From Gemmatimonadaceae bacterium (GTDB lineage Bacteria > Gemmatimonadota > Gemmatimonadetes > Gemmatimonadales > Gemmatimonadaceae): a DNA stretch of 45,592 nucleotides. Positions 32,092 through 36,493 of this stretch are shown here, one piece after another. The notes beneath the pieces are model-generated. The model worked only from the letters and a program-made list of their open reading frames with translations. It had not been told where the DNA came from and made no database searches. The stretch covers positions 1-45,592 of the forward strand of contig JACCWE010000083.1 in NCBI GenBank assembly GCA_013697785.1, read 5' to 3'. Numbering within the stretch: the first letter of the stretch is position 1; the number at the start of each line of letters is the position of its first letter. Position numbers and translations under genes: made by a program.

Positions 32092-32646
32092 CTATCGCAC
32101 GTCCGCGCGGTCGCCGATGTACTCGACCAGCAGATCGCGAATCCCCTCGAGTCTCTCCGGCCACTGTATGGCGCGCTTCGGCAGGTAGTACGCCGACTTG
32201 CGCGTGAAGAAGAGCAGGAACTCGCTCGTCTCGCGCACGACGATCAGCTGCGCCCAGTTGAGCTCCACGTGGAAGCTCTCGCCGTCGATGCGAAAGCCTG
32301 CCTCATCCAGCGTGTACGCACGCTCCTGCTGTGTGCTCGGATCGTCGGCGAGCTGCTGCTCGACCGCCTTCTTCATCGCCAGCGGCCGCGTGGCAGCGAA
32401 GATCGCCGCGCCCACGATCGGCACGCCGAACACCCACAGATACGCGATCGGCACGTGATGCAGCTCGCGCCACCGCCGCGCGATGATCGCGATCGCGATG
32501 CAGACGAAGACGCCGAGCGCGAGCAGTCGCAGCTCGCGCCATATGCGCCGCTCCTGCCTGGCGTGCTCCTTTCTGAGCGTGCGAATCGCGCGATAGTGCT
32601 CGTCCGCCTGCACGCGCCACCGCAGAATCGACGATGGGCGCGCCAT
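32092..32646 (-). CDS. YcxB-like C-terminal-domain membrane protein, coupled to chemoreceptor
   Basis: 184 residues. Residues 1-40 are charged (RPSSILRWRVQADEHYRAI then RTLRKEHARQERRIW), two membrane helices follow at about 41-58 and 67-84, and a C-terminal soluble domain (100-184) has the pattern YTLDEAGFRIDGESFHVELNWAQLIVVRETSEFLLFF, given in parts as YTLDEAGFRI, WAQLIVVRET and EFLLFFTRKSAYYLPKRA. This order matches YcxB-like C-terminal domains, small membrane proteins of unknown role. The ATG overlaps the chemoreceptor stop (ATGA), so both are probably made together. No enzyme motif is visible. Confidence 0.72.
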   Translation of the reverse strand: MARPSSILRWRVQADEHYRAIRTLRKEHARQERRIWRELRLLALGVFVCIAIAIIARRWRELHHVPIAYLWVFGVPIVGAAIFAATRPLAMKKAVEQQLADDPSTQQERAYTLDEAGFRIDGESFHVELNWAQLIVVRETSEFLLFFTRKSAYYLPKRAIQWPERLEGIRDLLVEYIGDRADVR

Positions 32647-33977
32647 CAGCCCGCGCCCACGCGAAAAACCGACACGCGCGCCTGCAGCCCCTCTGACGCG
32701 CTCGCGAGCGCCGCGGATGCAGCCGCGATCTCCTGCGCGCCCGCGCTTTGCTCCTGCGATCCCGCGGCCACCTGCTGCATGGCCGACGCGAAGGACTCCG
32801 TCCCGTGGGCCAGCTCGGCCAGCCGCGCATTGTTGCTCGCGAGCAGCGTCCCCGACTCCGTCGCCGCCTCGCTGATCGAGCGCAGCCACGCCACACTCTC
32901 ATCGAGCGCGCGCTCGATGCCGCCGAAGCTCCCGTGCGCCTCGCGCTGCGCATGCTGCACGATGCCGAGCGTCGTCACGGTCTCGCGGCTGCTCTCGCGC
33001 GACTGCTCCACGCGCTCCAGCACCAGCGCCACCGCCGTCTCCGTCCGCTCGGCCGCCTCCGCCGCAGTGATCGCGAGCGACCGCAGCTCCGACGCCACGA
33101 CGCCAAAGCCCTGCCCGTGCTCCCCCGCGCGCGCCGCCTCCATCGATGCGTTGAGCGAGAGCAGCTTGGCGCGCCTCGCTATCCGCCGCACGAGCGTCAC
33201 GAAGGATCCGATCTCGTGCGCTGCGTGACTCACCGCTTCCGCCGATGTCGCGCTCGACTCCGCGACGGCGGCGAGTGACGCCACCGCGGTCGCACTGTCA
33301 TCGAGCCGTGCGCGGCTGTTTCGCGCGAGCACCGCCAGCGAGTCGTTCCGCACGACGCCATCGCGCGCGCCCGCGTCGAGGCGCGCCGAGACGCGCAGCA
33401 GCCGGTCGGAGTCCGCAGCGGTGAGCGTGATCGCGGACGACATTCGCGACGCTTCCTGGCTGAGCTCTCCCGCCGTGCGCGCGAACTCGGACGCGGTCGC
33501 CGACAGCTGCTCCGTACCAGCCGTGATCTGCGCGGACATCGTCGCCGTCTCGTCGGAGGCGCTCCGCATCGCGTGGACCAGGCGGCGGAGCGCACCAATC
33601 ATCTCGTCGAGCGCCCAATGCAGGCGATGCACATGCTCACTCCCCTCCGCCGAACTGAACGCGATAGTCAAATCGCCCGCCGCCACACGCTCGGCCGCAT
33701 GCGCCAGCTGCGACACCGGATCGCTCGCCTGGCGCGCGACCGCGGCGGCGGCAACGAGCAGCGAGAGTACGACAATGGCGCCCAGGCCGATCGCGGCGAC
33801 CGTGACGTCACGGACGGCCGCGGCGTGCTGCACGGGGAGCTCGTATAGCGCCGCGTCGAGCCAGAGACGCCCCGCCCACGCGACGAGCGCGATCGCGACG
33901 ATCGCGGGAACGCTCGCGCCCAGCGCGATGCGCCACGGCGCGTTGCGCAGCGGGTTCCGAATGTGCTTGTCCGGCAT
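32646..33977 (-). CDS. Methyl-accepting chemotaxis-type protein without periplasmic sensor domain
   Basis: 443 residues from the ATG at 33977; GTG seven codons earlier is an alternative. Two helices, about 17-38 and 57-80, are joined by only about 18 residues, so there is no room for a ligand domain. A HAMP linker (81-130, DPVSQLAHAAERVAAGDLT) leads to the MCP signalling hairpin whose tip is residues 280-300 (EAARAGEHGQGFGVVASEL) with preceding KLLSLNASM. The C-terminal receptor tether pentapeptide is absent. It should sense something in the membrane or through a partner, perhaps the coupled YcxB-like protein. No che genes lie nearby. Confidence 0.9.
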   Translation of the reverse strand: MPDKHIRNPLRNAPWRIALGASVPAIVAIALVAWAGRLWLDAALYELPVQHAAAVRDVTVAAIGLGAIVVLSLLVAAAAVARQASDPVSQLAHAAERVAAGDLTIAFSSAEGSEHVHRLHWALDEMIGALRRLVHAMRSASDETATMSAQITAGTEQLSATASEFARTAGELSQEASRMSSAITLTAADSDRLLRVSARLDAGARDGVVRNDSLAVLARNSRARLDDSATAVASLAAVAESSATSAEAVSHAAHEIGSFVTLVRRIARRAKLLSLNASMEAARAGEHGQGFGVVASELRSLAITAAEAAERTETAVALVLERVEQSRESSRETVTTLGIVQHAQREAHGSFGGIERALDESVAWLRSISEAATESGTLLASNNARLAELAHGTESFASAMQQVAAGSQEQSAGAQEIAAASAALASASEGLQARVSVFRVGAG

Positions 33978-34048
33978 GTGGGGAACGCTAGATTTCACTT
34001 TTGCCCCGCCGCTTCCCGTGGGGAGCGCGCATCCAATTCAACCACACT

Positions 34049-36493
34049 GTGTCGACTTCGCACCCGGTCCCCGATGAGGGACCCATTTACGACCCGACCG
34101 CACTCGAGCTCAAATGGCAGCGCCGCTGGCAGGAGCGCCGCACCAACGAGCCCGACCTGCAGGCGGCGACGTCCCCGTTCTACCAGCTCATGATGTTCCC
34201 GTATCCGTCGGCCGAAGGGCTGCACGTCGGCAACGTCTTTGCGTTCGCGGGCGCTGACATCCATGGACGATTTCAGCGGCTGCAGGGGAACAGTGTCTTC
34301 GAGCCGATGGGGTTCGACGCTTTCGGCATCCACTCGGAGAACTACGCCCTGAAGGTCGGGGGGCACCCGATGCGGCTGATCCCCCAGAATATCGGGAACT
34401 TCCGCCGCCAGCTGCGCCGCGTCGGGCTCATGGTCGACTGGAAGCACGAGCTGTCGACGACGGACGCGAAGTACTACAAGTGGACGCAGTGGATCTTCCT
34501 CCAGCTCTTCAAGAAGGGGCTCGCCTACAAGAAGAAGGCTGCGGTCAACTGGTGCCCGAACGACAAGACCGTTCTGGCCAACGAACAGGTCGAGAACGGA
34601 CTGTGCGAGCGCTGCGGCGCGCGCGTCGAGCAGCGCTTCCTCGAGCAGTGGTTCTTCCGCATCACCGACTACGCCGAGCGTCTGCTCCACAACCTGGAGT
34701 GGATCGACTGGTCCGAGTCGACGAAGAGCGCGCAGCGTAACTGGATCGGGCGCTCCGAGGGCGCGGAGATATCGTTCGCGATCGCGGGCAACGACGGGCC
34801 GCCGCTGGTCGTGTTCACCACGCGCCCGGATACGATCTTCGGTGCGACGTATCTCGTGCTCGCGCCCGAGCATCCACAGGTCGCCGCAATCACCACCGCC
34901 GGGCAGAGCGCGGAGATCGAGGCGTACCGCGTGCGCACTGCGAAGCAGGACGTCGTCTCGCGGAAGATGGGTGAGAGCGCCAAGAAGACCGGCGCGTTCA
35001 CCGGCTCGTATGCGACGAATCCGGCGACGGGGGAGCGCATTCCGATCTGGGTCGCCGACTACGTACTGATGGAGTACGGCACCGGCGCGATCATGGCCGT
35101 GCCGGGACACGACGAGCGCGACTTCGCGTTCGCGCAGGGGTACGAGCTGCCGATCATCCGCGTCGTCGCGCCCGATGATTCGAATGCGAACGCGCCGCTC
35201 GCCGAGGCGTACACGGGTGACGGGCGGCTGGTGAACTCGGGGATGTTCGAAGGTGTGCCGGCGACGGAGGCGAAGTCGCGGGTGACGGAGTGGATGGTCG
35301 GCCTCTCGGCGGCGAAGCCCGTCGTGAACTTCCGCTTGCACGACTGGACGATCTCGCGGCAGCGCTACTGGGGCCCGCCGATTCCGATCATCTATTGCGA
35401 TGACTGCGGCGCGCAGCCTGTGCCCGAGGATCAGCTGCCGGTGATCCTGCCTGAGATCGAGGACTTCCGTCCGGACGACACCGGGATTTCGCCGCTCGCG
35501 CGCCACGAGGAGTGGTATCGCGTGCCGTGTCCGAAGTGCGGGAAGCTCGCGCGCCGCGAGACCGACGTGTCCGACACCTTCCTCGACAGCGCCTGGTACT
35601 TTCTGCGCTACCCGAGCTCGGACTTCGACTCGGTGCCCTTCGATCAGACGATCACCAGGAAGTGGCTCCCGGTGAATTCGTACATCGGTGGCAACGAGCA
35701 CGCCGTGCTGCATCTCCTGTACTCGCGTTTCATCACGATGGTGCTGCACGACATGGGGCACCTGACCTTCGAGGAGCCGTACACCCGCTTTCGCGCGCAC
35801 GGGCTGATCATCCGCGATGGCGCGAAGATGTCGAAGTCGAAGGGAAATGTCGTGAACCCGGACGAGTTCATCGAGCGTTGGGGGGCCGACACCTTCCGTA
35901 CCTATCTGATGTTCCTCGGCCCCTTCGAGGAGGGGGGCGACTTCCGCGACGCGGGGATTTCCGGTGTGCGCCGCTTTCTCGATCGGCTCTGGAAGTCGGC
36001 GCACGACGCGCACACGGACGGCGAGCCCGATCTGGCGGTCATGCGCAAGCTGCAGCAGACGATCCGCAAGGTCGGCGAGGACACGGCGAAGCTCAGCTAC
36101 AACACGGCGATCGCCGCGATGATGGAGTACATGAACGTGCTCCGCGCATCGGAGCGCGATGCGCATCGCGCGGAAGTCGAGCCGCTGGTGCAGCTCGTCG
36201 CGCCGTTCGCGCCGCACATAGCGGAGGAGCTGTGGGAGCTCTTCGGCCACGAGGGCGGCGTCTTCGAGTCACGCTGGCCGAAGTACGATCCGGCCCTGGT
36301 GACTGTCGACGAGATCGAGCTCGTCGTGCAGGTGAACGGGAAGGTGCGTGGGAAGGTCCAAGCCGCGCGCGACATCACGCAGGAGCGCGCGATGTCGCTC
36401 GCGCGCGGGGATGCCGGGATCTCGCGCTTCATCACCGGCGAGCCGAAGAAGATCATCTTCGTCCCCGGCCGGCTTCTCAACATCGTGGTGTAA
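34049..36493 (+). CDS. leuS: Leucyl-tRNA synthetase with variant HIGH motif
   Basis: 814 residues from GTG 34049; TTG at 34001 would add an Arg-rich tail that looks non-coding. The catalytic PYPSAEGLHVGN segment gives HIGH as HVGN (His59-Asn62), where most bacterial LeuRS have a second His. KMSKS is intact at 593-597. The GFDAFGIHSEN block replaces the usual GWDAFGLPAE. The CP1 editing domain is complete (FTTRPDTIFGAT and AVPGHDERDFAFA). The zinc-like Cys pairs are CERCGA and CPKCGK. The C-terminal anticodon and tRNA-binding regions end NIVV. The unusual motifs probably mark a lineage-specific LeuRS clade and do not suggest loss of function. Confidence 0.96.
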   Translation: MSTSHPVPDEGPIYDPTALELKWQRRWQERRTNEPDLQAATSPFYQLMMFPYPSAEGLHVGNVFAFAGADIHGRFQRLQGNSVFEPMGFDAFGIHSENYALKVGGHPMRLIPQNIGNFRRQLRRVGLMVDWKHELSTTDAKYYKWTQWIFLQLFKKGLAYKKKAAVNWCPNDKTVLANEQVENGLCERCGARVEQRFLEQWFFRITDYAERLLHNLEWIDWSESTKSAQRNWIGRSEGAEISFAIAGNDGPPLVVFTTRPDTIFGATYLVLAPEHPQVAAITTAGQSAEIEAYRVRTAKQDVVSRKMGESAKKTGAFTGSYATNPATGERIPIWVADYVLMEYGTGAIMAVPGHDERDFAFAQGYELPIIRVVAPDDSNANAPLAEAYTGDGRLVNSGMFEGVPATEAKSRVTEWMVGLSAAKPVVNFRLHDWTISRQRYWGPPIPIIYCDDCGAQPVPEDQLPVILPEIEDFRPDDTGISPLARHEEWYRVPCPKCGKLARRETDVSDTFLDSAWYFLRYPSSDFDSVPFDQTITRKWLPVNSYIGGNEHAVLHLLYSRFITMVLHDMGHLTFEEPYTRFRAHGLIIRDGAKMSKSKGNVVNPDEFIERWGADTFRTYLMFLGPFEEGGDFRDAGISGVRRFLDRLWKSAHDAHTDGEPDLAVMRKLQQTIRKVGEDTAKLSYNTAIAAMMEYMNVLRASERDAHRAEVEPLVQLVAPFAPHIAEELWELFGHEGGVFESRWPKYDPALVTVDEIELVVQVNGKVRGKVQAARDITQERAMSLARGDAGISRFITGEPKKIIFVPGRLLNIVV

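Follow-up and report, generated by a model that had tools for sequence, protein, structure and literature searches.

How does a chemoreceptor that carries no recognisable sensor domain stay in a genome, and does the small membrane protein encoded next to it provide the missing input? These questions are raised by two adjacent genes in the window, the whole stretch of 45,592 nucleotides from a Gemmatimonadaceae bacterium that was analysed here. The gene may well descend from an old, sensor-bearing chemoreceptor divergent from leuS, stripped of its sensor and kept as an element of the CheA/CheW array, a judgement that we consider finely balanced. The evidence for this reading, and for the alternatives to it, comes from the receptor itself, from its orthologues, from the neighbouring gene and from the chemotaxis genes of the genome.

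The receptor gene and its locus

The chemoreceptor gene (32646..33977, minus strand), delimited from its open reading frame and Pfam, runs from an ATG start to a TGA stop and encodes 443 amino acids. The MCPsignal domain (PF00015) scores 85.2 bits, against a Pfam cut-off of 34.6, which places the protein in the MCP family. Identity to three congeners is 88, 82 and 78%, and the whole-receptor dN/dS against them, 0.14–0.22, indicates that this is not a chance open reading frame. The Pfam scan gave no sensor match, dCache included, and the fold model (mean pLDDT 68.7) consists of helices throughout and shows no globular sensor. A hidden sensor was looked for by these two routes and rejected, and the description of the protein as a chemoreceptor without sensor domain, proposed in a sequence-only reading of the same DNA, is upheld.

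Membrane helix 1 (residues 17–35; 33873..33929, minus strand) and membrane helix 2 (residues 62–80; 33738..33794, minus strand) were placed by hydrophobicity and alignment. The loop between them comprises 26 residues when measured between 19-residue hydrophobic windows, and 4 residues between the helices of the fold model. Its length varies with the helix ends chosen, and the 18 residues given earlier are a fair middle value: that the loop is short holds, but the figure itself moves between 4 and 26 with the definition. Helix 2 leads into the HAMP region (residues 80–135; 33573..33740, minus strand), which was assigned by profile match and alignment. The HAMP profile scores 17.9 bits in the whole protein, below the Pfam cut-off of 25, and 27.2 bits when a 115-residue piece is scanned. 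The match covers positions 2–26 of the 53 in the profile, that is, the first half only, and the DExG stretch of the long orthologues of the family is replaced in this region. The sequence-only reading had described a HAMP domain followed by a complete signalling hairpin; the MCP hairpin is indeed intact, but the HAMP is only half recognised.

The hairpin tip (residues 256–310; 33048..33212, minus strand) was delimited by residue conservation and dN/dS, and we take it to be the part that meets CheA/CheW and likewise makes the trimer contact. A motif scan found five methylation-type motifs, against a mean of 0.28 in shuffled sequences; one lies at residues 152–161 (33495..33524, minus strand) and four overlap at residues 397–420 (32718..32789, minus strand), and these two stretches are presumably of the methylation type. 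Tip residues 271 and 279 (33141–33167, minus strand) are K in 67 of 68 rows and M in all 68 rows of the leuS-linked family, respectively, and are N and I at the equivalent positions of another MCP of the same genome (contig C28). The K/M pair could mark a distinct CheW/CheA interface.

Upstream, on the plus strand, lies a gene (34001..36493) that we take, from its sequence, to be leuS. It is divergent from the receptor and stands outside the signalling unit, and it marks the locus across relatives. The leuS start is uncertain (TTG at 34001 or GTG at 34049), and the spacer between the two divergent genes, drawn from the sequence and the list of open reading frames, is given as 33978..34048. The family sample comprises 148 genomes, from which the PF14317, CheA and FlhA counts given below also derive; some are incomplete (68–100% complete for the five from the window's genus). 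Of these genomes 130 have some receptor match, and the loci of the best 77 of these 130 were fetched. The receptor is divergent to leuS in all 76 readable loci of this set; the script alone scored 75 of 77, since in G133 an open reading frame reads through, the arrangement being divergent judging by coordinates, and in G077 the contig is cut. Among sister families, leuS adjoins the receptor in 16 of 21 loci of f2, in the single locus of f3 and in none of seven of f10, although some of the stretches examined were short. The five f2 loci where leuS is not beside the receptor in the stretch examined include G273, whose stretch starts at the receptor, and a long copy in G298. A scan of named genome contigs returned 32 loci at E ≤ 3e-32, and the titles of their records all read Gemmatimonadaceae, Gemmatimonadetes, Gemmatimonadota, Gemmatimonadales or Gemmatimonas; matches from other phyla come next, beginning at 5e-16 to 1e-16.

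Downstream of the receptor, no single gene is common to all short forms (defined below) among the neighbours called, and the neighbour differs by genus. In genus g20 (L098 and others) and in G033 (L076), a related gene comes after the receptor in the same orientation; in L098, the one member scanned, it is a Ser/Thr protein kinase according to Pfam.

Sensor-bearing and sensor-free orthologues

The distance between the two helices separates the 77 fetched receptors into 22 long, 3 half and 51 short forms, plus one unreadable, the classes being assigned from hydrophobic windows and reading and not by a topology program. The loop spans about 270 residues in the long forms, about 145 in the half forms and 8–28 in the 48 short rows with a computed value; the other three short rows (G135, G129 and G062) were classed by reading. 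Fourteen of the 20 genera fetched contain short forms. In G062 a stop codon cuts the receptor frame.

In the long orthologues, helices 1 and 2 are separated by a Cache loop of ~270 residues. Of three long members scanned, two gave a dCache_1 match, in each case under the Pfam cut-off, and phmmer searches with four long query rows (1e-35 to 1e-161) identify the long loops as one homologous domain. Helix 1 of the window receptor aligns with helix 1 of these Cache-bearing proteins, and the half form (L067, L083 and L092, all of genus g2) aligns with helix 1 and, in its loop, only with the portion of the Cache domain nearest the membrane. Both helices are traceable in five short forms aligned to long or half relatives. 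The clearest sensor loss is that of G094, which is short within a genus of nine long members and keeps the tail and helix 1; G078 is likewise short within g2, where the other three members carry the half-length loop. The alignments show that relatives bear the Cache domain between the same two helices, and that the lineage of the window and several others have both helices and the signalling hairpin but lack it.

The direction of the change was read from trees. Long forms whose alignment covers most of the protein are also found in families f2, f3 and f10, and the outgroup f10 is long in 7 of 7 cases. In a rooted tree of 99 rows, with f10 as outgroup, the short form needs 10 changes, six of them forced by starred branches; this tree was a quick search with several weakly supported deep branches, and leaves out the long-branch rows G005, G018, G079 and G119 as well as G062, G129 and G077. 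The window receptor clusters with long forms in a receptor tree with SH-aLRT values (10 rows, SH-aLRT 97; 67 of 69 rows used, with G062 and G077 left out), and a separate leuS tree, built from the 71 of 76 leuS rows longer than 300 residues, also puts the window's genus among long forms (12 rows, support 99). The 99-row tree joins this genus to the short genus g22, on an unstarred branch with support 89. Repeated separate gain of the Cache domain is disfavoured because the outgroup is long, with the caveat of the weak deep branches. Loss of the Cache domain is the reading to be preferred, with some uncertainty over how many times it happened, and the distribution as a whole is best read as repeated loss at a fixed locus, with the output end preserved. 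The long G298 copy, a member of f2, sits inside the window's family in the tree, where transfer or a mixed assembly is possible. A tie between sensor loss and loss of flagella is unsupported: FlhA was present in 4 of the 22 long rows, in none of the 3 half rows and in 19 of the 52 short rows, the last count including G077, whose unreadable N-terminus excludes it from the 51 used otherwise.

The output end is the part most strongly held. Residues N276, E280 and R283 of the tip are invariant in 68 of 68 family rows and, with the sister families added, are kept in 94 of 95 rows, the exception being one of the 40 long rows. Against the three congeners, dN/dS is 0.04–0.18 for the hairpin and 0.04–0.05 for tip residues 256–310, rising to 0.16–0.27 for HAMP and 0.20–0.76 for residues 1–82, which at 48–82% identity are the least constrained part of the receptor within the genus. 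HAMP also differs between classes. Its profile is matched by 22 of 22 long pieces versus 37 of 49 short ones; with sister families included, none of 40 long rows has lost the HAMP proline, versus 23 of 55 short rows, and the DE pair of DExG is missing from 17 of 40 long and 47 of 55 short rows. A comparison of HAMP decay with sensor loss over the five phylogenetically independent pairs did not give p < 0.05, and the recent losses (G094 and G078), together with genus g22, retain the proline and most of DExG.

These patterns bear on the first alternative, namely that the input is a physical state (temperature, osmotic pressure, proton motive force or membrane order) perceived by the two membrane helices themselves, which would act on the hairpin by way of HAMP. 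It is unlikely, with two points in its favour: membrane-bound MCPs without ligand-binding domain have been described, with physicochemical stimuli put forward as a hypothesis (PMC6775455), and both helices are retained in the five short forms that align to long relatives. It would, however, place the sensor in residues 1–82, the very segment that drifts most, and would pass the signal through a HAMP that is half recognised in the window and missed by the profile more often in short than in long forms. A receptor reading membrane state or energy had been suggested in the sequence-only reading, and the drift of the membrane part within the genus argues mildly against it.

The YcxB-like neighbour

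The gene that follows the receptor (32092..32646, minus strand) encodes a protein of 184 residues that belongs to the YcxB-like family PF14317, with 34.5 bits against a Pfam cut-off of 23.3, in agreement with the earlier assignment. The two genes had been said to overlap by ATGA, which proved incorrect: the junction reads TGATG, with one base shared. In the congeners, read by eye, the junction is a 2-nt gap in G056, a 4-nt gap in G091 and G032, and a GTGA overlap in G077. Tight receptor–YcxB spacing is common to the genus, and the overlap itself is not shared. Contig C317 of G091 (L049) carries a second, partial ycxB beside a peptidase-like gene at the contig edge, possibly a strain duplicate within the assembly.

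The predicted structure of the YcxB-like protein (pLDDT 74.6) is a PH-like fold interrupted after its first strand by a membrane hairpin of two helices. Its best structural matches are PH-fold chains (Z up to 10.1, rmsd 2.5, 91 residues), and a Foldseek search was weak, with E no better than 0.022 at this modest pLDDT. PH-like is our own reading of the predicted model, distinct from the official family definition. Literature searches on the role of YcxB, or on PH domains with YcxB, returned nothing useful.

Could this protein have replaced the Cache domain within the genus as a sensor in trans, as sensory rhodopsin serves Htr? The pair is on the same strand, with an overlap or at most 4 nt between the genes, in 5 of 5 species, the protein is the single PF14317 match of the window genome, and its dN/dS (0.11–0.36, ten pairs) indicates purifying selection. 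A predicted membrane hairpin with a PH-like domain would suit such a role, and sensory rhodopsin–Htr offers the precedent of a two-helix transducer with a membrane partner (PMC3274258). This second alternative is nevertheless rather improbable, given the distribution of the family beyond the genus. PF14317 is present in 12 of 148 family genomes and in 6 of 35 genera, seven of the genomes being outside the window's genus. Five loci from four of these seven genomes were read, and none has an MCP within 1.5 kb of the PF14317 gene; a YcxB-like protein apart from the receptor in relatives is what the sequence-only reading had named as refuting its proposal. Of the 51 readable short-form genomes, 45 have no PF14317 match. 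The related genus g22 is short with no YcxB match, and recruitment of YcxB therefore does not account for the loss of the sensor.

As a general partner of the receptor, YcxB is ruled out by this co-occurrence pattern. The earlier suggestion that the small protein is a sensory partner fails in general and keeps some ground within the genus, where a specific receptor–YcxB partnership is a possibility. A more elaborate version, in which one genus, after deletion of the Cache domain, recruited the PH-like YcxB as an in-trans input, forming a two-protein chemoreceptor of the sensory rhodopsin–Htr type that senses lipid or membrane state, appears quite improbable. Under the preferred reading, a sensor-stripped receptor kept as an array element, YcxB would be a closely spaced neighbour specific to the genus and not a general replacement sensor.

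The chemotaxis pathway and known systems

The genome of the window encodes three MCPs, with a tip-to-end arm of 163 residues in the receptor and 160 and 162 in the others. It also contains four CheW domains, counting that of CheA itself, one CheA match with a CheY-like receiver and CheC beside it, CheR, and CheB at a contig edge. None of the five species of the genus, this genome included, gave an FlhA match (completeness 68–100%). Two adjacent T2SSE ATPases are present, which we infer to be of the PilB/PilT kind and assign to a pilus; the chemotaxis set and these ATPases lie on contigs C151, C111, C139 and C63. Searches of the literature on Gemmatimonadetes, MCP and type IV pili found nothing on point. 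Gemmatimonas phototrophica has flagella and Che genes, and the receptor is not identified in the part of that paper available (PMC9862903).

Of the 77 receptor genomes, 71 have a CheA domain, as against 2 of the 18 genomes with no MCP match. Six receptor genomes have no CheA domain, two of them short and near-complete (G019, 100%, and G119, 99%). In these two (L108 and L088) the receptor is kept while the CheA dimerisation domain was not found, which indicates that the receptor can be retained where no partner is recognised.

If the receptor is an array element, its hairpin would still join trimers and bind CheA/CheW, and the gene would be retained for this. The protein would act not as a ligand receptor but by setting or diluting the basal activity of CheA, which CheR and CheB could tune, and any input left to it would have to enter by way of its helices, HAMP or methylation. 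The output of the sole CheA found would be other than flagellar, with type IV pili as the most likely candidate, judging from gene presence alone. That the gene is a decaying relic is very unlikely, since the lost sensor, the weak HAMP, the undetected CheA of some short-form relatives and the interrupted frame of G062 are outweighed by a hairpin under strong constraint, tip residues unchanged in every family row and the spread of short forms over most genera fetched.

The dCache chemoreceptors (dCache_1-HAMP-MCPsignal) are the orthologues, with the same locus, hairpin, HAMP position and two helices, whereas the window receptor has only a short loop in place of Cache. Four membrane MCPs without ligand-binding domain are described for Pseudomonas syringae pv. 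tomato (PMC6775455), and the window receptor resembles them in being membrane-bound and devoid of such a domain; here, in contrast, leuS synteny and an intermediate form reveal the ancestry and the repeated origin. The likeness to sensory rhodopsin–Htr lies in a two-helix, MCP-like transducer, where sensing could sit in an adjacent membrane protein (PMC3274258). However, YcxB is not a seven-helix photoreceptor, the pairing is seen in one genus only, and retention of the partner, complete in that genus (5/5), does not extend across the family. The window protein is, like other members of PF14317, small and membrane-anchored and reaches the family score, but among the PF14317 loci read, pairing with an MCP is confined to the window's genus.

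We found no paper on repeated sensor loss in such a chemoreceptor in the open-access literature, within the limits of the wording chosen for the search. For the role of membrane chemoreceptors without ligand-binding domain, the available part of PMC6775455 offers a hypothesis only. The family described here holds one leuS-fixed orthologue with full, half and no sensor, with losses inside single genera. It would provide matched pairs in which to ask what a receptor does once ligand binding is gone, and whether the HAMP relay then decays.
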